Positions 1,230-14,213 of a stretch of DNA of 64,000 nt are shown in pieces; within the stretch, counting starts at the first letter, position 1; each line of letters begins with the position of its first letter. Source of the stretch: Frankineae bacterium MT45 (GTDB taxonomy: Bacteria; Actinomycetota; Actinomycetes; Mycobacteriales; Jatrophihabitantaceae); NCBI GenBank assembly GCA_900100325.1, contig LT629697.1, forward strand, positions 682,001 to 746,000, written 5' to 3'. The position numbers and the translations under genes were made by a program. Under the pieces are notes generated by a model. The model was not told the origin of the DNA, did no database searches, and saw only the letters and a list, made by a program, of their open reading frames with translations.

Positions 1230-2540
1230 CTATTCGTAGAGGGGATCGATGGCGCGCCGCAGCAACTGCCCGACGTCGCCCAGGATGTGCTGACCGCCGG
1301 CCACGATGCGGCGCCCATCCACACAGACGTCGCGGACGTCGGCCGCGGTGGCGGCGAAGATGAGCTGCGTCGGGTCGGCCCCGGCGGTGCGTAGCGAGTT
1401 GATGTCGATGGTGACGAGGTCGGCCCGCTGACCGACGGCGAGTTCGCCGGCGTCGCTGAAGCCGAGACTGGCGTGCGCGGTGAGCGCTTGCTGGAGTTGG
1501 GCGAGGGTGAAGCGGCCGCGCTGCTGGGTGGCCAGTCGCTCATGAAGTTCCAGGGCGCGGGCCTCTTCGAGGAGGTCGATCACCGCGTGCTGATCGCTCC
1601 CGAGGCTGAGCGGCGACCCGGCTTCGGCCAGCGCGCGGGCCGGCCCTATGCCGTCGCCGAGGTCCCGTTCGGTGGTCGGGCAGAGGCAGGCCGTGGTGGA
1701 AGTCCGTCCGAGGGTCCGTATGTCTGACTCGGTGAGGTGGGTGGCGTGCACCGCGGTGCTATGCGGTCCCAACGCCCCGGCTCCATCGAGGAGTTCGGTC
1801 GGCGTCCGGCCGTAGTGGGCCAGCGCCGCCGCGTTCTCGGCTGGCTGCTCGGAGAGGTGGAAGTGCAGCGGGCGCCCGGCCGAGGCCGCCACGACCGCTG
1901 CCAGATCCGGCTGCGGTACCGAGCGGACGGAGTGGATCGCCGCCCCGATCTGCAGTTGCGCCCCGGCCGGCAGCTGCGCGGTTCGCGACGCCCACCTCTC
2001 CACCGTGCCGTCGGAGAAGCGCTGCTGGACCTCGTTGAGTTCGGTGTGCCCGTTGCCGTCGAAGCCGCCGGCGAGATAGCAGGTGTCCAATAAAGTAAGG
2101 CGAATTCCAACCTGCCGGGCTGCTTCGATGAGCGCGTGCCCCATGGCGTTCGGGTCGTCGTACGGTGTGCCGCCGGCCTGATGGTGCAGGTAGTGGAACT
2201 CCCCGACCGCGGTGACCCCGGCCAGCGCCATCTCGGCGTAGGTGGCCCGTGCCAGCGCCAGGTAGGAGTCCGGATCGAGGCGTCCGGCCACGTGGTACAT
2301 CCGTTCGCGCCAGGTCCAGAACGTCCCGCCGGCGTCGTGCGTCCGTCCACGGAGGGACCGGTGGAAGGCGTGGCTGTGCGCATTGGCGAAGCCCGGCAGG
2401 GCGACCCCGGCGAAGATCGACGTCCCGTCCGGCGGGGCGTCGGCGGTGATGGCGGTGTAGCGGCCGTCGCGGACGTCGAGGCGGACGTCACGGGCGAGTC
2501 CCGATGGCAGCAGCGCGTATTCGCACCACCAACTGGTCAT
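1230..2540 (-). CDS. hutF: Formimidoylglutamate deiminase HutF
   Basis: Amidohydrolase-superfamily enzyme that hydrolyses N-formimino-L-glutamate to N-formyl-L-glutamate and ammonia, the branch of histidine breakdown that avoids formamide release. The 436-residue length fits the family. Metal-site motifs are visible: NAHSHAFHRSLRGR near residue 54, LHFHLSEQ in the middle, and LGSDQHAVIDLLEEAR carrying the late Asp. The ATG overlaps the TGA of the upstream M20 gene by 4 bp (ATGA), which suggests translational coupling in the hut operon. HutF product requires a deformylase, and the neighbouring M20 hydrolase is the only candidate in view. Confidence 0.92.
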   Translation of the reverse strand: MTSWWCEYALLPSGLARDVRLDVRDGRYTAITADAPPDGTSIFAGVALPGFANAHSHAFHRSLRGRTHDAGGTFWTWRERMYHVAGRLDPDSYLALARATYAEMALAGVTAVGEFHYLHHQAGGTPYDDPNAMGHALIEAARQVGIRLTLLDTCYLAGGFDGNGHTELNEVQQRFSDGTVERWASRTAQLPAGAQLQIGAAIHSVRSVPQPDLAAVVAASAGRPLHFHLSEQPAENAAALAHYGRTPTELLDGAGALGPHSTAVHATHLTESDIRTLGRTSTTACLCPTTERDLGDGIGPARALAEAGSPLSLGSDQHAVIDLLEEARALELHERLATQQRGRFTLAQLQQALTAHASLGFSDAGELAVGQRADLVTIDINSLRTAGADPTQLIFAATAADVRDVCVDGRRIVAGGQHILGDVGQLLRRAIDPLYE

Positions 2541-3733
2541 GAGGCGAGCTCCCGGACCGCGCTGGTCAGGGCCTCGACCCCGGCGTGGCAGTCGGACGTC
2601 TCCGCGTGCTCGGCCGGCGAGTGCGACACCCCGGTCGGGTTGCGGACGAAGATCATCGCGGTCGGAATCCCGGCCCCGGCCAGGATCCCGGCGTCATGGC
2701 CAGCGCCGGTGGCCAGCACCGGCACTTGGCCGCCCAGGGCGGTGGCGAGCCGATCCCGCAGTGGTGCATCGAAGGGCGTATCAGCCGTAAAAGACTCCTC
2801 AATCGCCGCGACCCCGCCGGCCTCGGCGACGAACTGGGCGATCCGTCGGACGTCCGGCTCGTTCGGCCCACGGGCATCAAGCCAGGCCGTCACGGCCGAC
2901 GCGATCGCGTTCACACCGTTCGGCTCCACCCGCACCTTGCCGACCGTCGCCACCGCGCCGTACGTCTGGGCTGCGCGGCGAGCCTCCTGGATGACGGCGG
3001 CCAGGGCCAGCATCGGGTCGCGACGATCGACCAGCCGGGTGGTTCCGGCGTGATTCGCCTCGCCGAGCAGGTCCAGGCGCCACCGCCCGTGCGGCCAGAT
3101 CGAGGAGGCGAGGCCGACCGGTGCGTCGAGGTCGACCAGTGCCCGTCCCTGCTCCACGTGCAACTCGACGAAGGTGCCGATACGGGCCAGCGTCTCAGGA
3201 TCGGCGGCGGCGGAATCATCTGAAAAACCCGAGCGTTGCATCGCCTCGGCCATCGTGAAGCCGTCGCCGTCGCGGAGCCCACGGGCCCGGTCGGCGTCCA
3301 GTGCTCCGGTGATGATGCGCGACCCGGCGCAGGCCACCCCGAAGCGGGCACCCTCCTCGTCACCGAAGTTCACCACCCCGATCGGGCGCCTTGGCGTGAA
3401 GCCCGCCACGCGCAGGGCGTCCACCGCGGCGAAGGCCGAGACGACCCCGAGCGGGCCGTCGAAGGCGCCCCCGTCCGGCACCGAGTCGAGGTGCGAGCCG
3501 ATCACCACCCCCGGATCACCGGCCGTCACCGCAGCATCCGGGTCGCCCCACCAGGCCCACTGATTGCCGGCCCGATCCAGCGTCAGGTCGAGGCCGCGGG
3601 CTTCGGCGGCGGACGCGAACCATTCGCGAAGTACGGCATCTTCGCCCGTCCAGGCGAAGCGGCGATAGCCACCGGTTGCCGCATGCCGGCCGATCGGTTC
3701 GAGTTCGCTCCAGAGAGTGTCGAAGGCGGGCAA
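2537..3733 (-). CDS. M20-family amidohydrolase in hut operon (allantoate amidohydrolase/N-carbamoyl-amino-acid hydrolase type)
   Basis: Zinc-dependent M20 peptidase-like amidase, 398 residues. Motifs: GSHLDSVPDGGAFDGPLGV (metal His and Asp), GDEEGARFGVACAGSR (catalytic Glu), ELHVEQGRAL, and a late GAGHDAGILA. Such proteins are usually annotated allantoate amidohydrolase. Here it sits between hutU and hutF with no allantoin genes nearby, so hydrolysis of N-formylglutamate (the HutG role) is the likelier job; this is inference from context. The start is TTG at 3733, preceded by AGGAGAG with 9 nt spacing; no in-frame ATG or GTG lies near. It begins 5 bp after hutU and overlaps hutF by 4 bp. Confidence 0.85.
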   Translation of the reverse strand: MPAFDTLWSELEPIGRHAATGGYRRFAWTGEDAVLREWFASAAEARGLDLTLDRAGNQWAWWGDPDAAVTAGDPGVVIGSHLDSVPDGGAFDGPLGVVSAFAAVDALRVAGFTPRRPIGVVNFGDEEGARFGVACAGSRIITGALDADRARGLRDGDGFTMAEAMQRSGFSDDSAAADPETLARIGTFVELHVEQGRALVDLDAPVGLASSIWPHGRWRLDLLGEANHAGTTRLVDRRDPMLALAAVIQEARRAAQTYGAVATVGKVRVEPNGVNAIASAVTAWLDARGPNEPDVRRIAQFVAEAGGVAAIEESFTADTPFDAPLRDRLATALGGQVPVLATGAGHDAGILAGAGIPTAMIFVRNPTGVSHSPAEHAETSDCHAGVEALTSAVRELAS

Positions 3734-3738
3734 GCCGG

Positions 3739-5394
3739 TCAGCTCTCCTGCATCGGAATGCGGACGCCCCGCTCGGCGGCGACCTCAGCGGCGATCTCGT
3801 ACCCGGCGTCCACATGCCGGATGACGCCCATCCCCGGGTCGTTGGTGAGCACCCGACGCAGCTTCTCCTCGGCCAGCGGGGTGCCATCGGCGACGGTGAC
3901 CTGACCCGCGTGCAGAGAGCGGCCGATCCCGACTCCGCCGCCGTGGTGGATCGAGACCCAGGTCGCGCCACTTGCCGTGTTTACCAGGGCATTCAGCAGC
4001 GGCCAGTCGGCGATCGCGTCTGAACCGTCGGCCATCGCCTCCGTCTCGCGGTACGGGGAGGCGACGGAGCCGGCGTCCAGATGGTCCCGTCCGATCACCA
4101 CCGGCGCGCTCAGCTCACCACTGGCCACGAGCTGGTTGAAGCGCTCGCCGGCCTTGTCCCGCTCGCCGTAGCCGAGCCAGCAGATCCGCGCCGGGAGCCC
4201 CTGGAACGCGACCCGCTCCTGGGCGCCCCGAATCCAGCGATGCAGATGGTCGTTCTCCGGGAAGAGGTCGAGGACTGCCTGGTCGGTGACCTGAATGTCC
4301 TTCGGGTCGCCCGAGAGCGCCGCCCAGCGGAACGGCCCCTTTCCCTCGCAGAACAGAGGGCGAATGTAGGCCGGGACAAAACCGGGGAAGTCGAAGGCTC
4401 GCTGGTAGCCGCCTTTGCGGGCCTCGTCGCGGATCGAGTTTCCGTAGTCGAAGACCTCGGCCCCCGCGTCCTGAAAGCCGACCATCGCCTCGACGTGCTT
4501 GGCCATCGAGGCCTGGGCGCGGTCGGTGAACTCCTCAGGCTTCTTGTCGGCGTAGTCATGCCAGTCGGCGACGTCGATTCCTTCGGGAAGATAAGCCAAT
4601 GGGTCATGGGCTGAGGTCTGGTCAGTGACGATGTCGACGGCCACTCCCCGCGCCAGCAGTTCCGGGAGGACGACCGCGCAGTTGCCGACCAGCCCGACCG
4701 AGAGGGCGCGGCGATCGGCCTTGGCGGCGAGGCAGCGGGTGATCGCGTCGTCGAGGCCGTCGGCCAGCTCGTCCAGGTACCGGTGCTCGACGCGACGCCG
4801 CAGCCGGCTCTCGTCGACGTCGATGACCAGGCAGACGCCGTCGTTCATGGTGACGGCCAGCGGCTGCGCACCCCCCATTCCGCCACAGCCTCCGGTGACG
4901 GTGAGCGTCCCGGCGAGGGTGCCGTTGAAGCGCTTGGCCGCGACCGCGGCGAAGGTCTCGTAGGTCCCCTGGAGGATCCCCTGGGTGCCGATGTAGATCC
5001 AGGAGCCGGCCGTCATCTGCCCGTACATGGTGAGTCCGAGCCGCTCCAGGCGACGGAATTCGGGCCAGGTGGCCCAGTCGCCGACGAGGTTCGAATTGGC
5101 GATGAGGACGCGGGGCGCCCACTCGTGGGTCTGCATCACGCCCACTGGTTTGCCGGACTGCACGAGCATCGTCTCGTCGTCCTTCAGTGTGGTCAGGGTG
5201 CGCACCATCGCGTCGAAGGCCGGCCAGCTGCGGGCGGCCCGACCGGTGCCGCCGTAGACGACCAGGTCGTCGGGGCGCTCGGCGTTCTCGGGGTCGAGGT
5301 TGTTCATCAGCATCCGGAGCGGGGCCTCGGTCTGCCAGGAGCGGGCCGTGAGGTTCGTGCCGTGGGCTGCGCGTACGGGTCGAGCGCCATCCAT
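3739..5394 (-). CDS. hutU: Urocanate hydratase HutU
   Basis: Converts urocanate to 4-imidazolone-5-propionate using tightly bound NAD+ as an electrophile. The 551-residue length is normal. Visible signatures are [11 protein letters not shown] near the N-terminus, the NAD-binding segment [13 protein letters not shown] near residues 168-180, and [15 protein letters not shown] near residue 405, which holds the conserved active-site Cys. The ATG at 5394 has an AAGGAGA Shine-Dalgarno about 7 nt upstream. It is the first gene of the minus-strand operon hutU-M20-hutF-hutH. The promoter should lie in the 79 bp between it and the upstream ADP-ribosylglycohydrolase gene, which is also on the minus strand; no regulator gene is adjacent. 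Confidence 0.96.
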
Positions 5395-5473: not shown

Positions 5474-7012
5474 CTAGAGCAGCGAGATCGACCCAGTCGA
5501 GCTGCGGCTGACCGCCGCCACGACGGCCGTCAGTGCTTCGGCCAGCGGGACGTCGCGCAGGGTCGCCCCGTAGCGGGCGGCGACCTCGGTGGCCACCCCG
5601 CCGGCGCCGATCCCGTGCAGGTAGACGCGCTTGCCCTCGCTGCGCAGCTGGGCGATGACCCGGGCGGCGTCGTCGAGGACGAAGTCCAGGTTCGGATTCT
5701 CGACACGGGCGTCGCTCTCGACGACCCACATCTCGATGTGGTCCTCCGGCGCGATGAGTTCAGGGATGTCCGCCCGCCCGACCCGGCAGAGCGACACGAT
5801 CGCGTCGACGCCGAAGGGGAGCCGGTGGAGGACGTCGAAGCCGCCGAGAAGCAGGTCGCTGTCGTACGGATGGGCGGTGATCGGATCGGCCGCGGCGGGC
5901 TGCGCGTACTCCAGGTGCGGCCGGTTCGGCCAGTTCGTCGGGGAGTCGTCACCGTCGCGCGTGATGAGGACGGCCAGCCGGGTCAGGTCCCGCTCGCGCA
6001 GCCCAGGCCACCCATGCAGCAGCCGCCGCCACTCGGCTGGTACCGCCGAGCCGCCATAGGCCGCGCCGACCAGGCCGCCGGTGATGGCCGCGATCGTGTC
6101 GGTGTCGTTGCCGCTGCGGGCCGCGAGCTCGATCGCGCGGGCCAGGTGCTGAGCCCGGAAGGTGCCGGCCGGGGCGTCGTTGGCTGTGGCGTCACTGGCT
6201 GTGGCGTGAGTAGTCGGCGCGTCCGTTGCCGGGGCGGCACCGCCAGACTGAAGCGTGCTGTGCGCGATGGCCGACCATGCCGCTTGGAACGCCTCGACGA
6301 CCCAGCCGTTCTCCTCGAAATCGGCCGGCATCGTGCGCTCGGCCGCCTCGATGCGGGCCAGCCACACCTCGCGGCGCGTCGTCGAGAGACGGGAGAGACC
6401 GCGGCGGATGTTCAGCGAGCCGCAGAGCACCGCGTGCCGGACGGCCAGGCACCAGAGGGCGCATGCCTCGGCCGCTTCGGTGTCGTAGTGAGTGAGGTGG
6501 CTAAGGGATTGAGCCACCTCGAAGAGCGTGTCCTCATCGTGCAGGTAAGCCAGTGCGACGGCGGCGGTGCGCATCAGCGACCCGTTGCCGCCGGAGCGTC
6601 CGGAGCGCCGGTGGTGCTCCTCGGCCGCTGCCCGCAGATGGGATGCGCGTAGCGGGAGGAGCTCCTCGCGGGCTGCGTGGTGGGCGCTCGTCAGCACGCT
6701 GCGGGTCTGGGCTCCGACGTCGGGTGCCTTCTGGGCCCAGCGGTACCACGCGTTGGCGATCTGGTCCTGAGCCTCGTCGCTGGCGAGATCCGCCCCGGAG
6801 GCGGCGACCTGGGCCAGTACCAGGCCCATCGATGTGTCGTCGGTCCACTCGCCGCGCTCCCACCCGAAGGTGCCGCCGCCGATCATGGCGATCGTCTCGG
6901 CTGCGCTGCGGGGAGGGTGAAACTCGTAGGGTGCACCGAGTGCGTCGCCGGCAGCGCTACCGAGGAGCACGCCGACGGCGCGATCCAGCTGTGCACTGCT
7001 CAAGCGAGTCAC
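5474..7012 (-). CDS. ADP-ribosylglycohydrolase (DraG-like) with degenerate C-terminal dual-specificity-phosphatase-like domain
   Basis: 512 residues, GTG start. The N-terminal three quarters show the binuclear-metal DraG/ARH signatures: [41 protein letters not shown] and [20 protein letters not shown]. It should remove ADP-ribose from proteins or small molecules. A low-complexity Ala/Thr/Asp stretch, encoded partly by a repeated GGCTGTGGCGT, interrupts the domain before [12 protein letters not shown]. The last ~140 residues resemble the phosphatase domain fused to similar actinobacterial proteins, but the expected HC-x5-R loop reads [10 protein letters not shown] at residues 466-475. Neither the catalytic Cys nor the Arg is present, so this part is probably inactive. 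There is no obvious functional tie to the hut operon downstream. Confidence 0.88.
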
Positions 7013-7173: not shown

Positions 7174-9723
7174 GTGACTTCATCTCTGACGCTCGGTGTC
7201 GAGGAAGAGCTTCATGTCGTCGATCTGGAGAGTTCGCTCCTCGTCCCCCGCGCGCCGCAACTGCTTGCCCGGCTCCCTGCGCAGAGCTTCTCGGCCGAAC
7301 TGCAGCGCAGCACTATCGAGACGAACACCGAGGTGTGCAGCACCCTCGATGAGCTGCACGCCGAGATCGTCCGGCTCCGCTCCGAGCTGATCAGCGTCGT
7401 CGCCTCCGAGGGTCTGGGCGTGGCCGCCGTTGGGACGGCGCCGATGTCGTCGGCCGAGGACTTCGAGCTCACCGCGACCGGGCGCTTCGGGCGGATGCAG
7501 GAGGAGTACCGGCTGCTGGTCGACGAGCAGCTGATCTGTGGCACGCAGGTGCACGTCGGCTTGGCCGACCGTGACCTGGCCGTGAGCGTCGCCCAGCGGG
7601 TGAGCCGTGACCTCCCCACGCTCCTCTCCCTCTCGGCCAGCTCCCCGTTCTGGCACGGCACCGACACCGGCTACGCGAGCATCCGCACCATCATCTGGCA
7701 GCGCTGGCCCACCGCCGGGACCTTCGGGGAACTGACGTCGGCCAGCCAGTACGACGACCTCGTCTCCGACCTGATCAGCTCCGGGGTGATCGCCGACGCC
7801 AAGATGGCCTACTTCGACGTCCGCCCCTCCTCGCACGTCCCGACCATCGAGCTGCGGGTCTGCGACGGCTGCCCGATCGTTGATGACGCGGTGCTCATCG
7901 CCGGGCTCTTCCGAGGCCTGGTCGCCGAGGCCCAGGCCGCGGCGCTGGCCGGCGAGCCGATCGTCCCGCTCCCGGCGCCGCTGCACCGGGCCGCGATGTG
8001 GCGGGCGGCCCGCAGCGGTCTGGCCGGCGACCTGCTCGACAACAGCCCCCGGCCGCAGCCCGTCCCGGCGGCCCAGGTGGTGCGGGCCCTGGTCAACCGG
8101 CTCCGCCCGCACCTGGAGGAGCTGGGTGATTGGAGCACCGTCCACGAGCTCTCCGAGGCGACGCTGATCCGCGGCAACTCCGCCGACCGCCAGCGGGCGG
8201 CCTTCGCCGAGAACGGTCGGATGACCGACGTCGTCGAGCAGGTGGTCGGCGAGACGCACGGCACGATCGAGGATTCGGCCCGGGCTCGCAAAGGGATTCG
8301 CCGCTACCCGGCCCGAGCCGGCGACGAGGTCTTCATGGCCTCCGGTGAACCGCGGCCGCCGTACCGCGAGGTGCTGAAGGAGCTGGAGCAGACGACCCTC
8401 TCTGAGGCGGCCGAGCAGGCGGCCCAGCGGGACGAGTGGTCGGTCGCGCAGGGGATGACCTTCGGCGTCGACGGCGGCCACCGTCCCTTCCCGGTCGACC
8501 TGCTCCCCCGGGTGATTCCGGCTCACGAATGGGCCGGGCTGCGAGCCGGGTTGGCCCAGCGGGCCCGGGCCATCGAGGCCTTCCTGCAGGACATTTACGG
8601 CGAAGAGAAGGTGCTGGCCGAGGCGGTGCTGCCCGGCGACGTGGTGCGGGCGGCCATCGGCTGGCGGGAAGAGGCCCGGCGGCTGCCAGCCGGGACGCTT
8701 CGCGCGCCGGTGCAGGGTTTCGACCTGGTCCGCAACGAGCTCGGGGCGTGGCGGGTGCTGGAGGACAACGTCCGGGTGCCCTCCGGTGCCGGCTTCGCGG
8801 TGGCGATCCGGGAACTGATGGACGTCGTCGTGCCCGGGCTGCCCCGTCCGGAGCACCTGCTCGGGCCGGCCGGTCTGCCCGGGCTGCTGCGTCGCGCGCT
8901 GGAGGCGTGTGCGGCCCCGGGGGCGACCGGGACGCTGGCCCTTCTCTCCGACGGCGCCGGGAACTCGGCCTTCTTCGAACACCGGCTCCTCGCCGAGCGG
9001 GCCGACCTCCTGCTGGCCACCCCGGAGCAGCTGGAGGTGACCGACGGCCGCGTCGTCTACCGCCCGACCGGCGCCTCGATCTCCGTCCTGTACCTGCGCC
9101 TGGACGTGGAACTCCTCGACCTGGTCGACAAGGACGGGCGGGCGATCGGCAGCGAACTGCTGGAGGCGGCGGTGGCCGACTCGGTACGGCTGGCCAACGC
9201 GCCGGGGAACGGCGTCGCCGACGACAAGGCGATGTACTGCTACATCAGCGACCTCATCGCCTACTACCTGGGAGAGAAGCCGCTACTGGACTCGGTGCCG
9301 ACCTACCGCTGCAGTGATCCGGAGGAGTGCCGCTCGGTGCTGGAGCGGGTCGGTGAGCTCGTCACCAAGCCGGTGGACGGCTACGGCGGGGGTGGCGTGA
9401 TGGTCGGGCCACTGGCCTCGGCCGCCGCGGTCTCGGCCCGTCGCGCCGAGGTGGCGGCTGATCCGGCGCGCTGGGTGGCCCAGGAGGTGGTCGCCCTCTC
9501 CTCGCATCCGACGTTCAACGGCGCCAACCTGGAGCCCCGTCACGTCGATCTGCGGGCCTTCGTCTACCTGACCGGCACCGGACCGGATGAGGCGCATGTG
9601 GCGGATCTCGCGTTAACCCGGGTGGCCCCCGCGGGGAGCATGGTCGTGAACTCGTCCCGCGGTGGCGGGGCCAAAGACACCTGGATCATTGGAGATGACG
9701 ATCAACGGCGAACCGAGAGCTGA
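7174..9723 (+). CDS. Fused carboxylate-amine ligase (GCS2 family) and circularly permuted ATP-grasp protein
   Basis: 849 residues with two amide-bond-forming modules. Residues about 6-370 are a glutamate-cysteine-ligase type 2 (YbdK/EgtA-like) domain: TLGVEEELHVVD, TIETNTEVC and LICGTQVHVGLAD are visible. Residues about 430-840 are a type 2 circularly permuted ATP-grasp: LPRVIPAHEW, FLQDIYGEEKVL, LEDNVRVPSGAGFAVAIREL, YRPTGASISVLYLRLD and VDGYGGGGVMVGPLAS. From family knowledge, both act by acyl-phosphate chemistry on carboxylates. The substrates are not deducible here, but a short peptide such as a gamma-glutamyl or glutaminyl amide is plausible. The next gene, an asparagine-synthase-like amidotransferase, starts 27 bp downstream, suggesting one operon. 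GTG start; possibly leaderless. Confidence 0.85.
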   Translation: MTSSLTLGVEEELHVVDLESSLLVPRAPQLLARLPAQSFSAELQRSTIETNTEVCSTLDELHAEIVRLRSELISVVASEGLGVAAVGTAPMSSAEDFELTATGRFGRMQEEYRLLVDEQLICGTQVHVGLADRDLAVSVAQRVSRDLPTLLSLSASSPFWHGTDTGYASIRTIIWQRWPTAGTFGELTSASQYDDLVSDLISSGVIADAKMAYFDVRPSSHVPTIELRVCDGCPIVDDAVLIAGLFRGLVAEAQAAALAGEPIVPLPAPLHRAAMWRAARSGLAGDLLDNSPRPQPVPAAQVVRALVNRLRPHLEELGDWSTVHELSEATLIRGNSADRQRAAFAENGRMTDVVEQVVGETHGTIEDSARARKGIRRYPARAGDEVFMASGEPRPPYREVLKELEQTTLSEAAEQAAQRDEWSVAQGMTFGVDGGHRPFPVDLLPRVIPAHEWAGLRAGLAQRARAIEAFLQDIYGEEKVLAEAVLPGDVVRAAIGWREEARRLPAGTLRAPVQGFDLVRNELGAWRVLEDNVRVPSGAGFAVAIRELMDVVVPGLPRPEHLLGPAGLPGLLRRALEACAAPGATGTLALLSDGAGNSAFFEHRLLAERADLLLATPEQLEVTDGRVVYRPTGASISVLYLRLDVELLDLVDKDGRAIGSELLEAAVADSVRLANAPGNGVADDKAMYCYISDLIAYYLGEKPLLDSVPTYRCSDPEECRSVLERVGELVTKPVDGYGGGGVMVGPLASAAAVSARRAEVAADPARWVAQEVVALSSHPTFNGANLEPRHVDLRAFVYLTGTGPDEAHVADLALTRVAPAGSMVVNSSRGGGAKDTWIIGDDDQRRTES

Positions 9724-9750
9724 CCGGGTAACCGACGAAGCGGAGCAGAC

Positions 9751-11553
9751 ATGTGTGGTCTAGCGGGTGAGATCCGCTTCGACGGACAGAGCGCCGACGC
9801 CGCGGCCGTCGAGCGGATCTGCGTCAAGATGGCGCCGCGCGGACCGGACGGCAACGGGATCTGGGCGAATGGACGGGTCGCCTTCGGCCACCGCCGCCTG
9901 TCGATCATCGACCTCTCTGACGCCGGGGCCCAGCCGCTGGTCGACTCCGACCTGGGCCTGACCGTCGTCTTCAACGGCTGCATCTACAACTACCGGCAAC
10001 TCCGCGGTGAGTTGGAGGCGGCCGGCTACCGCTTCTTCTCCACCTCCGACACCGAGGTGATCACCAAGGCCTACCACCACTGGGGCGCCTCCTGCGTGGA
10101 ACGCTTCCTGGGGATGTTCGCCTTCGTCATCCTGGAGCGGCGCAGCGGCGTGGTGGTGATGGCCCGTGACCGTCTGGGCATCAAGCCGCTGTACCTGGAC
10201 CAGACGCCCGCGCGCCTGCGGTTCGCCTCGACGCTCCCGGCGTTGCTGGCCGCCGGGGGCACCGACACGTCGATCCACCGCACCGCACTGGCCTACTACA
10301 TGTCGTTCCACTCGGTCGTGCCGGCGCCGCACACCATTCTCACCGGGGTGCGGAAACTGCCGCCGGCGACGGTGCGGACGATTCAGCCGGACGGTTCCTT
10401 CAGCGACTGGGTCTACTGGGACGCGGTCTTTGCCCGGGATGACTCGATGGCCGGCGCTGGCTCGATGGTTGGAGCGTCTGCCCAGGATTGGCAGGAGGCG
10501 CTGCTGGCGAGCCTGCGCACCGCGGTCGAGCGGCGCATGGTCGCCGATGTACCCGTCGGGGTGCTGCTGTCGGGCGGGATCGACTCGAGTCTCGTCGTCG
10601 CCCTGCTGGCCGAGGCCGGACAGAGCGACCTGATGACCTTCAGCATCGGCTTCGACGCGGCCGGCGGCGAGAGTGGTGACGAGTTCGAGTACTCCGACCT
10701 GGTGGCCCGCCACTTCGGGACGAAGCATCACCGCATCCCGATCGACTCATCGCGGCTGCTCCCCGGAATCGACGCCGCGATCGACGCGATGAGCGAGCCG
10801 ATGGTGAGCCACGACTGCGTCGCCTTCTACCTGCTGAGCCAGGACGTCTCCCAGGAGGTGAAGGTGGTTCAGTCCGGGCAGGGCGCCGACGAGGTGCTCG
10901 GCGGCTACGACTGGTACCCACCACTGCTCGGGGTTCCTCGCTCGGAGGCGGTGGAGGCGTACGCGAACGTCTTCTTCGACCGGCGTTTTGTCGCGCTCGG
11001 CTCGCTGCTCTCGCCGGAGTGGATGATCGCCGACGACGCGCCGACGGCCTTCGTCGCCGCCCAGTTCGCCCGTCCCGGCGCTGAGACGACGGTCGACGCG
11101 GCGCTGCGCAACGACACCACGATCATGCTGGTCGACGACCCGGTGAAGCGCGTGGACAACATGACGATGGCCTGGGGCCTGGAGGCTCGGGTGCCGTTCC
11201 TGGACCACGAGTTCGTCGAGCTGGCCGGGAGAATCCCCCCGGAATTAAAGCTGGAACTCGGTGGCAAGGGCGTGCTGAAGCGGGCCAGTCGCGGGGTGGT
11301 GCCGGATGAGGTCATCGATCGGACGAAGGGGAGCTTCCCGGTGCCGGCGATTCGCCAGCTGGAGGGGCCGTACCTGGAGCGGGTGCGCGAGGCGCTCTCC
11401 GACCCGGCGGCGCGGGCCCGTGGCCTCTTCCAGAGCGAGCCGGTTGAGCGGATGCTGGCTGAGCCGAACAAGACGCGGACGACCCTCGGTTCGAATGCGC
11501 TCTGGCAGCTCGCGCTGCTGGAGATGTGGCTGCAGAAGATGGATATTCGCTAG
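9751..11553 (+). CDS. Asparagine-synthase-family glutamine amidotransferase
   Basis: 600 residues. After Met removal the N-terminal MCGLAGEIRFDG supplies the Ntn glutaminase nucleophile Cys2; residues about 1-200 form the glutaminase domain (GHRRLSIIDLS, VVFNGCIYNYRQLR). The synthetase half carries the pyrophosphate loop LLSGGIDSS at residues 271-279 and GQGADEVLGGYDWYP. It should move ammonia from glutamine onto a carboxylate activated with ATP as an acyl-adenylate. The size and partnership with an ATP-grasp ligase and a peptidase resemble the amidotransferase of the N-acetylglutaminylglutamine-amide trio, so an amidated peptide is a better guess than free asparagine. A GGAG-type ribosome-binding site (GCGGAGCAGAC) precedes the ATG. 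Confidence 0.88.
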   Translation: MCGLAGEIRFDGQSADAAAVERICVKMAPRGPDGNGIWANGRVAFGHRRLSIIDLSDAGAQPLVDSDLGLTVVFNGCIYNYRQLRGELEAAGYRFFSTSDTEVITKAYHHWGASCVERFLGMFAFVILERRSGVVVMARDRLGIKPLYLDQTPARLRFASTLPALLAAGGTDTSIHRTALAYYMSFHSVVPAPHTILTGVRKLPPATVRTIQPDGSFSDWVYWDAVFARDDSMAGAGSMVGASAQDWQEALLASLRTAVERRMVADVPVGVLLSGGIDSSLVVALLAEAGQSDLMTFSIGFDAAGGESGDEFEYSDLVARHFGTKHHRIPIDSSRLLPGIDAAIDAMSEPMVSHDCVAFYLLSQDVSQEVKVVQSGQGADEVLGGYDWYPPLLGVPRSEAVEAYANVFFDRRFVALGSLLSPEWMIADDAPTAFVAAQFARPGAETTVDAALRNDTTIMLVDDPVKRVDNMTMAWGLEARVPFLDHEFVELAGRIPPELKLELGGKGVLKRASRGVVPDEVIDRTKGSFPVPAIRQLEGPYLERVREALSDPAARARGLFQSEPVERMLAEPNKTRTTLGSNALWQLALLEMWLQKMDIR

Positions 11554-11555
11554 GG

Positions 11556-13424
11556 ATGGTGCTCCACCCTGCGCTGAACGAGCAGTCAGACCTCGCCGGG
11601 CTGATGCGTCAACTGGTCGACGCCTGGGGGAGTTGGGCACCGAGCGTCTCGCCGGACTCTGACCACGTCGCCTTCGTCAGTGACCGGAGCGGGCGCCCCG
11701 AGGTGTGGGTGCAGGCGATGGCTTCGGGGCCGGCGCCGGACCTGGCCGACGCGGTGCGGGTGCCGGTCTCGCCCGACCCGGTCGTGTCGGTGCATTGGTC
11801 CTCCGACGGCGAGTGGCTGGCCTGCGCGGTGGCTGCGCACGGTGGCGTGCGCACCGAGGTGTGGGTGGTCCGGCCGGATGGGTCCCAGCTGCAGCGGATC
11901 GCCGGCTCGGCTGAACACCACGCGACGCTCGGCCCCTGGACGCGTCATGGTCGCCAAGTCGTCATCACGAACATCCCGGGAAAGGCGGGTGATTCCAGCG
12001 CTGAGCTGGTCGACCCGGCCACCGGTGAGCATGAGCCGCTGGCCGTCGGTGCGCTGGTTGACGTTCTGGACCTCTCGGCCGGTGAGCGGTTCGCCCTGCT
12101 GCGGGACGGGAAGCGGGGGGCTCAGTTCTGCGTGGTCCTCGATCGTGAACTCGACTCCGACCACCCGCTCCTCCCATATCCGCAGACCGGTTCGACGAGC
12201 GCGGGAATGCTCCGCCCGGCACCCTACGGCGACGAGACGGCGATGGTCGCGTACCTGGTGTCGGATGCCGGTCAGCCGCGGAAGGCCTTACTGGCTATAC
12301 CCATTCACGCCGACGGTGAGCGGGGTGAGGTCGGGCTGCTGGCTGCGCGTGAGGACGGTGAACTCGACTTCGTCGATGCCGACGATGCCGGCCGGGAGAT
12401 GGTGCTGGTCTGGAATGTGCAGGGTCGCAGCGAGGTGGAGCTCCTCGACGTCGAGTCGGGGCGGCGCACCCCTTTGCCGGACCTGCCGGGCGCGGTGGTG
12501 GATGGGTGTGTGCTGTCACGAGACGGTTCCTGCGTCGTCCTCTGCGTGCAGTCACCGACCCGCCCCCAGGAGATCTGGCGTCTCGATCTCGGCTCGCTGA
12601 CCTGGCATCAGGTCTCCGACCGGCCGCCGCTGCCGGACGCTTCGTTGGTGACGCCGACGCTGCAGCATTTCCTGGCTCATGACGGCCTCCCGCTGAGTGG
12701 CTGGCTGTACCGGGCCGTCGGGCCGCAGCAGGCGGGACCGGCGATGCTGAGCCTGCACGGCGGTCCGGAGTCGCAGGAGCGGCCGACCTTCAGTGCCCAG
12801 CACCAGGCGCTTGCCGCGGCTGGGATCAGCGTCTTCGCCCCCAACATTCGCGGATCCTCCGGATACGGAAGGGCATTCGTGCACGCCGACGACCGGCATG
12901 GGCGGCATGATGCGATCACCGATGTGGAGACCTCAGCGCTGTACCTGGTCGGGATTGGGGTGGCCAATGGTCGGCGCATCGCGGTGACCGGCCGCTCCTA
13001 CGGCGGGTACCTGACGCTGGCCGCGCTGGCCCGCTTCTCGGGGCTCTTCGCGGCCGGGGTGGACATCTGCGGCATGTCGGATCTAATGACGTTCTACCGC
13101 GACACCGAGCCGTGGATCGCGGCGGCCGCGGTGACGAAGTACGGCGATCCGAAGACCGACGGTGCGCTGCTGCGGCAGATCTCCCCGATCAACCACGTGC
13201 GCCGGATCATCGCTCCGGTGCTGGTCGTGCACGGCGAGTTGGACACCAATGTCCCGCTCAACGAGGCGACCCAGATCGTCGCGGCGCTGCGGGCGCTGGG
13301 GCGCGACGTCGAGTACCTGGAGCTGGCCGGCGAGGGGCATGAGTACCGGCTCCCCTCGTCGCGGCTGCAGCTCATCGAGACGATGGCGCGGTTTCTGACG
13401 CTGCGGTTGGCGGTCGATCGGTAG
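11556..13424 (+). CDS. S9-family (prolyl-oligopeptidase-like) serine peptidase
   Basis: 622 residues from the ATG at 11556, 2 bp after the amidotransferase stop; a GTG at 11526 (in-frame, overlapping) is an alternative start. The N-terminal ~380 residues look like a beta-propeller (repeated SPDSDHVAFVSD-type strands). The C-terminal alpha/beta hydrolase has the triad: Ser near residue 479 in TGRSYGGYLTL, Asp near 561 in HGELDTNVPL, His near 593 in GEGHEYRLPS. There is no signal peptide, so it is probably cytosolic, cleaving short peptides. Its place behind two peptide-forming enzymes parallels the M42 peptidase of the NAGGN trio; processing or recycling of the peptide product is inferred. Confidence 0.88.
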   Translation: MVLHPALNEQSDLAGLMRQLVDAWGSWAPSVSPDSDHVAFVSDRSGRPEVWVQAMASGPAPDLADAVRVPVSPDPVVSVHWSSDGEWLACAVAAHGGVRTEVWVVRPDGSQLQRIAGSAEHHATLGPWTRHGRQVVITNIPGKAGDSSAELVDPATGEHEPLAVGALVDVLDLSAGERFALLRDGKRGAQFCVVLDRELDSDHPLLPYPQTGSTSAGMLRPAPYGDETAMVAYLVSDAGQPRKALLAIPIHADGERGEVGLLAAREDGELDFVDADDAGREMVLVWNVQGRSEVELLDVESGRRTPLPDLPGAVVDGCVLSRDGSCVVLCVQSPTRPQEIWRLDLGSLTWHQVSDRPPLPDASLVTPTLQHFLAHDGLPLSGWLYRAVGPQQAGPAMLSLHGGPESQERPTFSAQHQALAAAGISVFAPNIRGSSGYGRAFVHADDRHGRHDAITDVETSALYLVGIGVANGRRIAVTGRSYGGYLTLAALARFSGLFAAGVDICGMSDLMTFYRDTEPWIAAAAVTKYGDPKTDGALLRQISPINHVRRIIAPVLVVHGELDTNVPLNEATQIVAALRALGRDVEYLELAGEGHEYRLPSSRLQLIETMARFLTLRLAVDR

Positions 13425-14213
13425 TCAGTCGGTAGCGTTCTCCCAGTCGTACTCGAACTCCGGGAAGGGGCCGGTGGCCGTCTCGGGAACGCCCCCGGTG
13501 CCGGGCTGGTGCGGGGAGAAGATCGGGCCCGTCCACATGTCCTCGCCGATGTCGCAGCAGAAGGAGCGCAGGTCGGGGAGCCAGCCTGACTGTTGCCGGG
13601 CGAGATGGTGAGCCCAGTCCTCGGCGTCCGGGGGAAGCGGGGCGAGGAGAGTGGGCCAGCGTGCGGCGATCCCATTGGCCAGCCCGAGGAGCAGGTTCGC
13701 GTTCGGCTCGGTCATCGTGGATCCGGCGACCAGTTCGATCTGCACGCATCCATCACCGGTTCGCAGCCGCTCCAACGGAGCCTGCACCAACGCCTCTCGT
13801 AGCGCCGGCTCGAGCACTGCCAGGATTCGGGGGGCATCGCTGCCATCTCCCGAGGTGGTGACGCGCAGGGCGTCGTCGAAGCGGTGATCGCCTGTCTCGA
13901 GCTGGATGCTTGTCTCAATACTGCGGGCCTTTACCCGACGGTCCACCAGGCTGCGTCTACGAACCTCGAACTCCGGCAGGGGCGCCGGTATCGGGAAGAA
14001 GGCCATCAGCTCTGCCTCGTCGGCCAGTGCGAGCGGCCGACTCCGCCCATCGTGCTGGTGCGCTTCGATCCGCAGGGGCACCCCGGCCGTCGCGATGTCC
14101 AGGCTCCAGACGCCGCTGTTCGGCTTCAACGGGTTCTCGACCGGCGGTCCGGCCGTGATCGGCACACCGAGCATCGAGGTGGGAAATCGGTCACGGTCAA
14201 TCAGCTTCAGCAT
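13425..14213 (-). CDS. Hypothetical protein, 262 aa
   Basis: Not recognised. It is a soluble-looking, acidic protein rich in Pro, Leu and Glu, without a signal peptide or membrane segment. It begins MLKLIDRDRFPTSMLG and ends in a Pro/Gly-rich tail with FEYDWEN. A Cys pair (SFCCDIGEDMW) and a basic stretch RRRSLVDRRVKAR are the only notable local features. Codon use is normal for the region. Its stop abuts the stop of the convergent S9 peptidase with no intervening base. It lies 63 bp downstream of the MerR gene on the same strand and could be co-transcribed with it. Confidence 0.7.
   Translation of the reverse strand: MLKLIDRDRFPTSMLGVPITAGPPVENPLKPNSGVWSLDIATAGVPLRIEAHQHDGRSRPLALADEAELMAFFPIPAPLPEFEVRRRSLVDRRVKARSIETSIQLETGDHRFDDALRVTTSGDGSDAPRILAVLEPALREALVQAPLERLRTGDGCVQIELVAGSTMTEPNANLLLGLANGIAARWPTLLAPLPPDAEDWAHHLARQQSGWLPDLRSFCCDIGEDMWTGPIFSPHQPGTGGVPETATGPFPEFEYDWENATD

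Follow-up and report, generated by a model that had tools for sequence, protein, structure and literature searches.

A proposed exchange of Ngg for a fused, glutathione-like ligase beside a NAGGN-type amidotransferase in Actinomycetota

The closest described counterpart of the locus treated here is the pathway for N-acetylglutaminylglutamine amide (NAGGN), in which Ngg couples an N-terminal cap (acetyl) to the peptide bond and AsnO amidates the product; the AsnO and Ngg enzymes of Sinorhizobium meliloti serve as the reference (PMC8070244). The complete system comprises AsnO (TIGR03104), Ngg (TIGR03103, the NAGGN synthetase, with GNAT and ATP-grasp parts) and a peptidase. We analyzed a stretch of 64,000 nucleotides (hereafter, the window) from Frankineae bacterium MT45 (contig LT629697.1, positions 682,001 to 746,000), which lies within a 4.23-Mb single-contig genome. 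At positions 7174 to 13424, the window carries three genes that encode a fused ligase (gene 1), an amidotransferase (gene 2, AsnO) and an S9 hydrolase (gene 3). This trio is real and conserved, and is best seen as a variant form of the NAGGN system whose front end resembles that of glutathione synthesis. It has in common with the NAGGN system the amidotransferase family, a two-domain front-end ligase, predicted C-terminal amidation and a linked peptidase. It differs in having no Ngg, in having GCS2 and circularly permuted (CP) ATP-grasp domains instead of GNAT and ATP-grasp, and in that the peptidase slot of its loci holds an S9, EgtC-like or DUF1028 gene.

All three genes lie on the plus strand. 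Gene 1 (7174..9723, GTG start) encodes an 849-residue bifunctional ligase in which GCS2 is fused to a circularly permuted type 2 ATP-grasp domain, gene 2 (9751..11553, ATG start) a NAGGN-type glutamine-dependent amidotransferase of 600 residues, and gene 3 (11556..13424) a hydrolase of the S9 (prolyl-oligopeptidase) family, 622 residues long from the ATG at 11556. Genes 1 and 2 are spaced by 27 bp, with GGAG at 9742-9745 ahead of the ATG at 9751. The gap between genes 2 and 3 is 2 bp if gene 3 starts at ATG 11556; its mechanically called open reading frame begins at GTG 11526, within gene 2. Strand and gaps agree with the original prediction, which had been made from the window's sequence. A scan for promoters and terminators found none.

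The original prediction had also read gene 1 as two different amide-forming folds in one chain, and both domains are indeed found in a single frame: GCS2 (PF04107) at residues 7-283 with 180.5 bits, and CP_ATPgrasp_2 (PF14403) at residues 445-818 with 357.8 bits (cut-off 32; profile positions 1-374 of 374). In what follows, the GCS2 half is taken as residues 1-365 (7174..8268, plus strand) and the ATP-grasp half as residues 376-849 (8299..9720, plus strand). Among NCBIfam models, gene 1 passes NF010041 (362.4 bits, cut-off 332) and TIGR02050, the YbdK family (265.7 bits, cut-off 176.4). It falls far under the cut-offs of the EgtA model TIGR03444 (19.2 bits against 370.8) and of the cyanobacterial GshA model, and the GshAB models TIGR01435 and NF002688 are not among its matches at E<=0.001. 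The GhExE signature of GCS2-type ligases (PMC2588565) is present at residues 8-12 as G8-V9-E10-E11-E12. Across 37 aligned fusions, the GCS2 half keeps G8, E10-E12, E49, H127, R171, E226 and R228 invariant, a set that aligns with YbdK-type structures except for E11 (Leu there). Likewise invariant in the ATP-grasp half are E530-D531-N532, K685, K732, D792, R794, N826 and K834.

An AlphaFold model of the fusion (mean predicted local distance difference test score [pLDDT] 88.6) consists of two well-formed halves joined by a weak linker at residues 366-374. The GCS2 half matches Salmonella NP459575 (1tt4; Z 42.1), YbdK (1r8g; Z 41.5) and plant glutamate-cysteine ligase (2gwc; Z 35.8), and its alignments to 1r8g and 2gwc span 340-347 residues; the fusion differs from the YbdK family and the plant enzyme in having a second ligase and a link to AsnO. 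For the ATP-grasp half, the best match is 3n6x (Z 38.5, 36 per cent identity), whose function is putative according to its entry title. Plant, human and yeast glutathione synthetases follow with best Z of about 25-26.5. Next come YgiC and YjfC of Escherichia coli, with Z of about 23, and the glutathionylspermidine and trypanothione synthetases (about 19-22, of which glutathionylspermidine synthetase, GspS, accounts for about 20.6-22). We looked for missing active residues and incomplete sites in either half and found the conserved residues kept in the 37 fusions and both halves folding as whole domains. As modelled, the halves combine a glutamate-cysteine ligase fold with a glutathione-synthetase fold of the eukaryotic type; such common folds do not reveal the substrate. 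GshF (GshAB), whose structures 3ln6 and 3ln7 are fold matches to the N-terminal half of the fusion, likewise unites two such parts in one chain, the gamma-glutamyl ligase first and the ATP-grasp second, but both halves of the fusion come from different families. Elsewhere in the same genome there are two more CP_ATPgrasp_2 genes and a second GCS2 gene (G000:C1:1470038-1471168, 2919974-2921107 and 3995560-3996408).

Gene 2 begins with MCG, which supplies the expected Cys2, and has its SGGIDSS loop from residue 274. The original call of an asparagine-synthase-like amidotransferase can be made more specific, as the protein scores 940.8 bits against TIGR03104, the NAGGN-amidotransferase equivalog (cut-off 570.1). 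An ordinary asparagine synthetase is rejected by comparison with the 416.1 bits of the general asparagine synthase model. The protein is 61 per cent identical to a pSymB protein of S. meliloti 1021 and has a predicted structure with mean pLDDT 86.9. In the genome of the window, it is the one TIGR03104 gene over the cut-off, and TIGR03103 finds nothing at E<=1e-40. The analogy with the NAGGN system gains from this equivalog score and from the lack of Ngg, and is stronger than was first claimed.

To place this AsnO among its relatives, we reconstructed a tree and compared alignment columns, the latter in 86 sequences chosen from a larger number retrieved. The AsnO proteins that accompany fusions (37) are separated from those that accompany Ngg (27) by 4 or 6 columns, according to which way the thresholds are set. 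Two clades inside the Ngg type are separated from each other by 11 or 23 columns, the fusion type differs from these clades taken singly by 16 and 7, and a Streptomyces type (5 sequences) differs from the Ngg type by 30; small groups inflate counts of this kind. It is fair to say that, in sequence, the fusion type is about as distant from the Ngg clades as these are from each other, and we see no sign of a new acceptor pocket in it. In the tree, whose root is unsure owing to a very long outgroup branch, a branch with support 87 sets the fusion type apart, with the Streptomyces type next to it (support 86). Therefore, partner and amidotransferase travel together. Because the amidotransferase is so similar to the NAGGN type, its acceptor probably ends in Gln, as in NAGGN.

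Gene 3 matches Peptidase_S9 (PF00326) with 147.9 bits (cut-off 22.6; scanned from GTG 11526). Its predicted Ser-Asp-His triad is present by motif, not by structure: GRSYGG, HGELD and GEGHE at residues 479, 559 and 592 give Ser481, Asp563 and His595. The best solved matches are an amino acyl peptidase (5l8s) and an S9 peptidase (8wt1), then acylamino-acid-releasing enzymes, which strip blocked N-terminal residues. No M42 peptidase was found at the locus, where the linked hydrolase is S9 and three other scanned neighbors are not M42 (no M42 search was made beyond these genes). Of the two replacements in the original prediction, that of the GNAT enzyme by a GCS2/ATP-grasp fusion is supported, given the TIGR03104 score and the lack of Ngg, and that of an M42 by an S9 peptidase holds here without being universal. 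Specifically, four loci (L150, L163, L164 and L171), half of the eight named loci described below that have AsnO without S9, carry an EgtC-like gene in the slot after AsnO. In the three of these that were scanned, TIGR03442 is the sole NCBIfam match (204.7-215.4 bits, cut-off 218.65); the fourth gene is 63 per cent identical to one of them. EgtC takes off a gamma-glutamyl group in ergothioneine synthesis. In one other actinobacterial family, the slot is occupied by a DUF1028 gene, and locus L129 has both a DUF1028 gene and, further along on the opposite strand, a weak EgtC-like match (29 per cent). S9 was not found in any of 11 Ngg-type loci (stretches of 8-20 kb).

Linkage was assessed in 80 named loci, the best matches to an alignment of fusions found via two GCS2 peptide patterns; these loci measure linkage and not prevalence, and since several lie on short contigs, the absences among them are upper bounds. 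All 80 match nearly the whole fusion. AsnO lies downstream in 69 of them, S9 in 64 and both in 61, always on the same strand as the fusion, and Ngg (TIGR03103) occurs in none of the 80 flanks at E<=1e-10. The conserved linkage on which the original prediction turned is therefore found. Linkage of AsnO extends over 10 named families and the complete trio over nine; families represented include Micromonosporaceae (26 loci), Microbacteriaceae (17), Pseudonocardiaceae (6), Streptosporangiaceae (3), Frankiaceae (3) and Propionibacteriaceae (2). The next most frequent neighbor family reaches 19 of the 80 loci, which together with the AsnO and S9 counts rules out a chance neighborhood. Nor is the fusion an accident of one genome, as 75 of the 80 are open throughout the matched stretch; the remaining five have a single stop 3-8 residues short of its end.

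In a sample of the phylum, TIGR03104 is present in 46 of 396 genomes, 32 of which also have TIGR03103 (30 over the cut-off and two in pieces). A GCS2 gene adjoins AsnO in 12 of the 14 genomes that have TIGR03104 without TIGR03103. Four of these 12 carry the fusion (that of the window plus three that share a family), and four, termed Streptomyces-type because their AsnO groups with that of a Streptomyces fungicidicus plasmid, have GCS2-AsnO-S9 with no ATP-grasp nearby. Three, from another family, have a divergent GCS2 and a separate CP-ATP-grasp gene between GCS2 and AsnO, followed in two by a DUF1028 gene (the third contig ends inside AsnO), and one has GCS2-AsnO. In the public annotation of the S. 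fungicidicus plasmid, the genes appear as glutamate--cysteine ligase, N-acetylglutaminylglutamine amidotransferase and alpha/beta fold hydrolase. Genome G317, from the fusion family, carries fusion-S9 where a contig ends, and AsnO was not detected in it at the threshold used. At locus L085 (G237), the GCS2, ATP-grasp and DUF1028 matches are each split in two beside an unbroken AsnO, which reflects either assembly indels or decay.

Within the Actinoplanes family, we located 46 AsnO places, spread over 38 of 130 genomes (for one of them, in G413, we used G204, since matching coordinates and E-value suggest that the two are a single genome). The ATP-grasp end of a fusion lies upstream and S9 downstream at 18 places; Ngg accompanies AsnO at another 18 and a different GCS2 gene at seven, and no partner was found at three. 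Ngg and the fusion occur together at none of these places. Seven loci of this family (L220-L222, L224, L225, L227 and L229) carry a third type of AsnO (about 882-903 bits against TIGR03104) that adjoins a GCS2 gene 35-37 per cent identical to that of the window. No ATP-grasp or S9 match was found inside the 8.5-10.5 kb stretches around it, and five of the seven genomes also carry an Ngg-type AsnO. Apart from these, a lone GCS2 gene on a Mycobacterium branderi plasmid (L236, 5992-7131) is 48 per cent identical to the first half of the fusion; it sits between DUF6131 and DUF5994 genes, in a 13-kb stretch with no annotated AsnO.

We hypothesize that the trio is a NAGGN-like pathway with an exchanged front end, which makes a peptide capped by a gamma-glutamyl residue and then amidates its C-terminus, and we consider the chances of this to be about even. 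In such a pathway, the GCS2 half would provide the gamma-glutamyl residue as N-terminal cap in place of acetyl, since GCS2 enzymes form gamma-glutamyl bonds, and the glutathione-synthetase-like ATP-grasp half would join a second residue. The fused enzyme would yield gamma-Glu-X or gamma-Glu-X-Y, assembled in the fashion of glutathione, and AsnO would convert the C-terminal carboxylate to the amide using glutamine. Lineages without the ATP-grasp would be expected to make gamma-Glu-Gln-NH2 ([M+H]+ 275.135), and those with it gamma-Glu-X-Gln-NH2, of which gamma-Glu-Gln-Gln-NH2 ([M+H]+ 403.194) is one possibility; NAGGN has an [M+H]+ of 316.162. Like NAGGN, both predicted products would carry no net charge, which would fit a compatible solute, and the small amidated peptide of the trio is probably a salt-stress protectant. 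The S9 hydrolase may act in the direction of recycling the blocked peptide. In Ngg itself, as seen in the protein of L094, the ATP-grasp half matches a GshAB model with 138.8 bits, under the cut-off of 425, and therefore both front ends echo glutathione synthesis.

Several observations weigh against this hypothesis. We infer the substrates and product of every member seen here, and the comparison of AsnO columns depends on group size and does not bear directly on the acceptor. Cysteine may be the acceptor of the GCS2 half, given the activity of YbdK, the nearest solved GCS2 relative, which is a gamma-glutamyl:cysteine ligase by the title of its paper. The EgtC-like matches fall just below the curated cut-off. 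Two of the 14 genomes with TIGR03104 and without TIGR03103 are exceptions to the GCS2 association: G076 has ATP-grasp-AsnO-DUF1028 with no GCS2 beside it at E<=1, and G298 has AsnO-S9 with neither GCS2 nor ATP-grasp. None of the four Streptomyces-type genomes has a CP_ATPgrasp_2 match at E<=1e-10, and therefore the ATP-grasp step is not universal. Finally, of the 11 named loci without AsnO, one on a short contig was left out and the genomes of the other 10 were searched; in eight of these (those with loci L099, L110, L115, L123, L130, L131, L132 and L176) TIGR03104 gave no hit at E<=1e-100, some of the assemblies being possibly incomplete. Therefore, the fused ligase can exist, or serve, without amidation. 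No replacement amidating enzyme was found among eight flank proteins of such loci, two of which had no Pfam match.

An alternative, which we consider unlikely, is that the trio makes NAGGN itself, with the fused ligase producing Gln-Gln, an unlinked acetyltransferase adding the cap and AsnO amidating the result. The slight difference between fusion-type and Ngg-type AsnO is consistent with this, as are reports on Frankia, where three loci (L152, L172 and L173) carry fusion-AsnO-S9. A Frankia cluster has been named asnO-ngg, with an 'Ngg' less than 15 per cent identical to known Ngg (PMC5563000), and an osmotic role is assigned to it (PMC5563000; PMC5768760). That 'Ngg' may be the fusion. The cluster of Casuarina Frankia is described with a dipeptidase gene between asnO and ngg (PMC5563000); the order in the three loci is fusion-AsnO-S9. 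FRAAL1888, a glutamine amidotransferase among proteins raised by PEG, has been tied to NAGGN (PMC5768760) and may be the AsnO of these loci. A further point for this alternative is that nuclear magnetic resonance shows NAGGN in Micromonospora provocatoris (PMC8146288); we dropped this as proof of the product, as the 46 AsnO places of the Actinoplanes family are split among partner kinds and, since the family has AsnO loci of both kinds, the NAGGN of Micromonospora is no evidence for the fusion.

Three further points argue against NAGGN as the product. With no fourth family that exceeds 19 of the 80 named loci (the roles of rarer families being unchecked), no acetyltransferase appears to belong to the set. 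One Blastococcus genome has fusion-AsnO and AsnO-Ngg at separate places, and in two genomes a fusion-S9 locus coexists with AsnO-Ngg located elsewhere, which would be odd if the products were identical. In addition, the bonds made by GCS2 enzymes are gamma-glutamyl bonds (see PMC2588565 for the family).

Quite unlikely, in our view, is that the trio is a biosynthetic cassette with no osmotic role, whose peptide is a secondary metabolite or is passed to another molecule. The fusion genes of the eight genomes, among the 10 searched, that lack any AsnO match would fit such a cassette, as would the third type of AsnO, with its different GCS2 neighbor, in the Actinoplanes family. However, the named loci, with no fourth family in more than 19 of 80, are unlike a tailored cluster, and their spread over 10 named families speaks for a general role more than for a specialized one.

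We give a low probability to a redox metabolite, that is, a glutathione-like tripeptide based on gamma-Glu-Cys that is C-terminally amidated and is no osmolyte. The folds of both glutathione enzymes in the fusion and the activity in the title of the YbdK paper speak for it, but AsnO retains the NAGGN-type sequence, for which the known acceptor ends in Gln (PMC8070244), and the EgtA and cyanobacterial GshA scores are far under their cut-offs. Very improbable is that the ATP-grasp half is non-catalytic or acts elsewhere, with GCS2 and AsnO alone making gamma-Glu-Gln amide in all lineages, as the Streptomyces-type genomes might suggest, given the many ATP-grasp residues that are invariant in the 37 fusions and the separate CP-ATP-grasp genes between GCS2 and AsnO in another family.

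Returning to the hypothesis of a gamma-glutamyl-capped amide, such a product would be a new compatible solute across many soil and plant-associated actinobacteria. We suggest, tentatively, that gamma-glutamyl peptide amides (gamma-Glu-Gln-NH2 and gamma-Glu-X-Gln-NH2) may form a class of compatible solutes in many Actinomycetota that has not been described so far. They would be made by a fused enzyme in which the two steps of glutathione synthesis were re-invented with other protein families, and by an amidotransferase shared with NAGGN. If true, this would be a case of modular exchange, in which the front end that caps and couples was replaced and the amidating enzyme retained. NAGGN may have been mis-assigned wherever only the amidotransferase was recognized, and Frankia may be a published example. 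The circularly permuted ATP-grasp family would also gain a testable reaction, and the predicted masses would tell the products apart by liquid chromatography-mass spectrometry. In literature searches of partial coverage, we found no description of a GCS2/ATP-grasp/AsnO trio. Iyer and colleagues may already have listed this fusion in 2009.

The trio is flanked on both sides by genes of the minus strand. The downstream neighbor (13425-14213, 262 residues) directly abuts the stop codon of the S9 gene with its own end, and its product gives neither a Pfam nor an NCBIfam hit at E<=0.001. The upstream neighbor (5474-7012) encodes an ADP-ribosylglycohydrolase (residues 14-327) with about 180 extra residues beyond that domain. 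These contain a 13-residue segment (letters not shown) that we take to resemble the loop of dual-specificity phosphatases minus its Cys and Arg. Further along the minus strand, at 1230-5394, lie genes for formimidoylglutamate deiminase, an allantoate-amidohydrolase-type protein and urocanase, so that genes for histidine degradation to glutamate adjoin the trio on the opposite strand.

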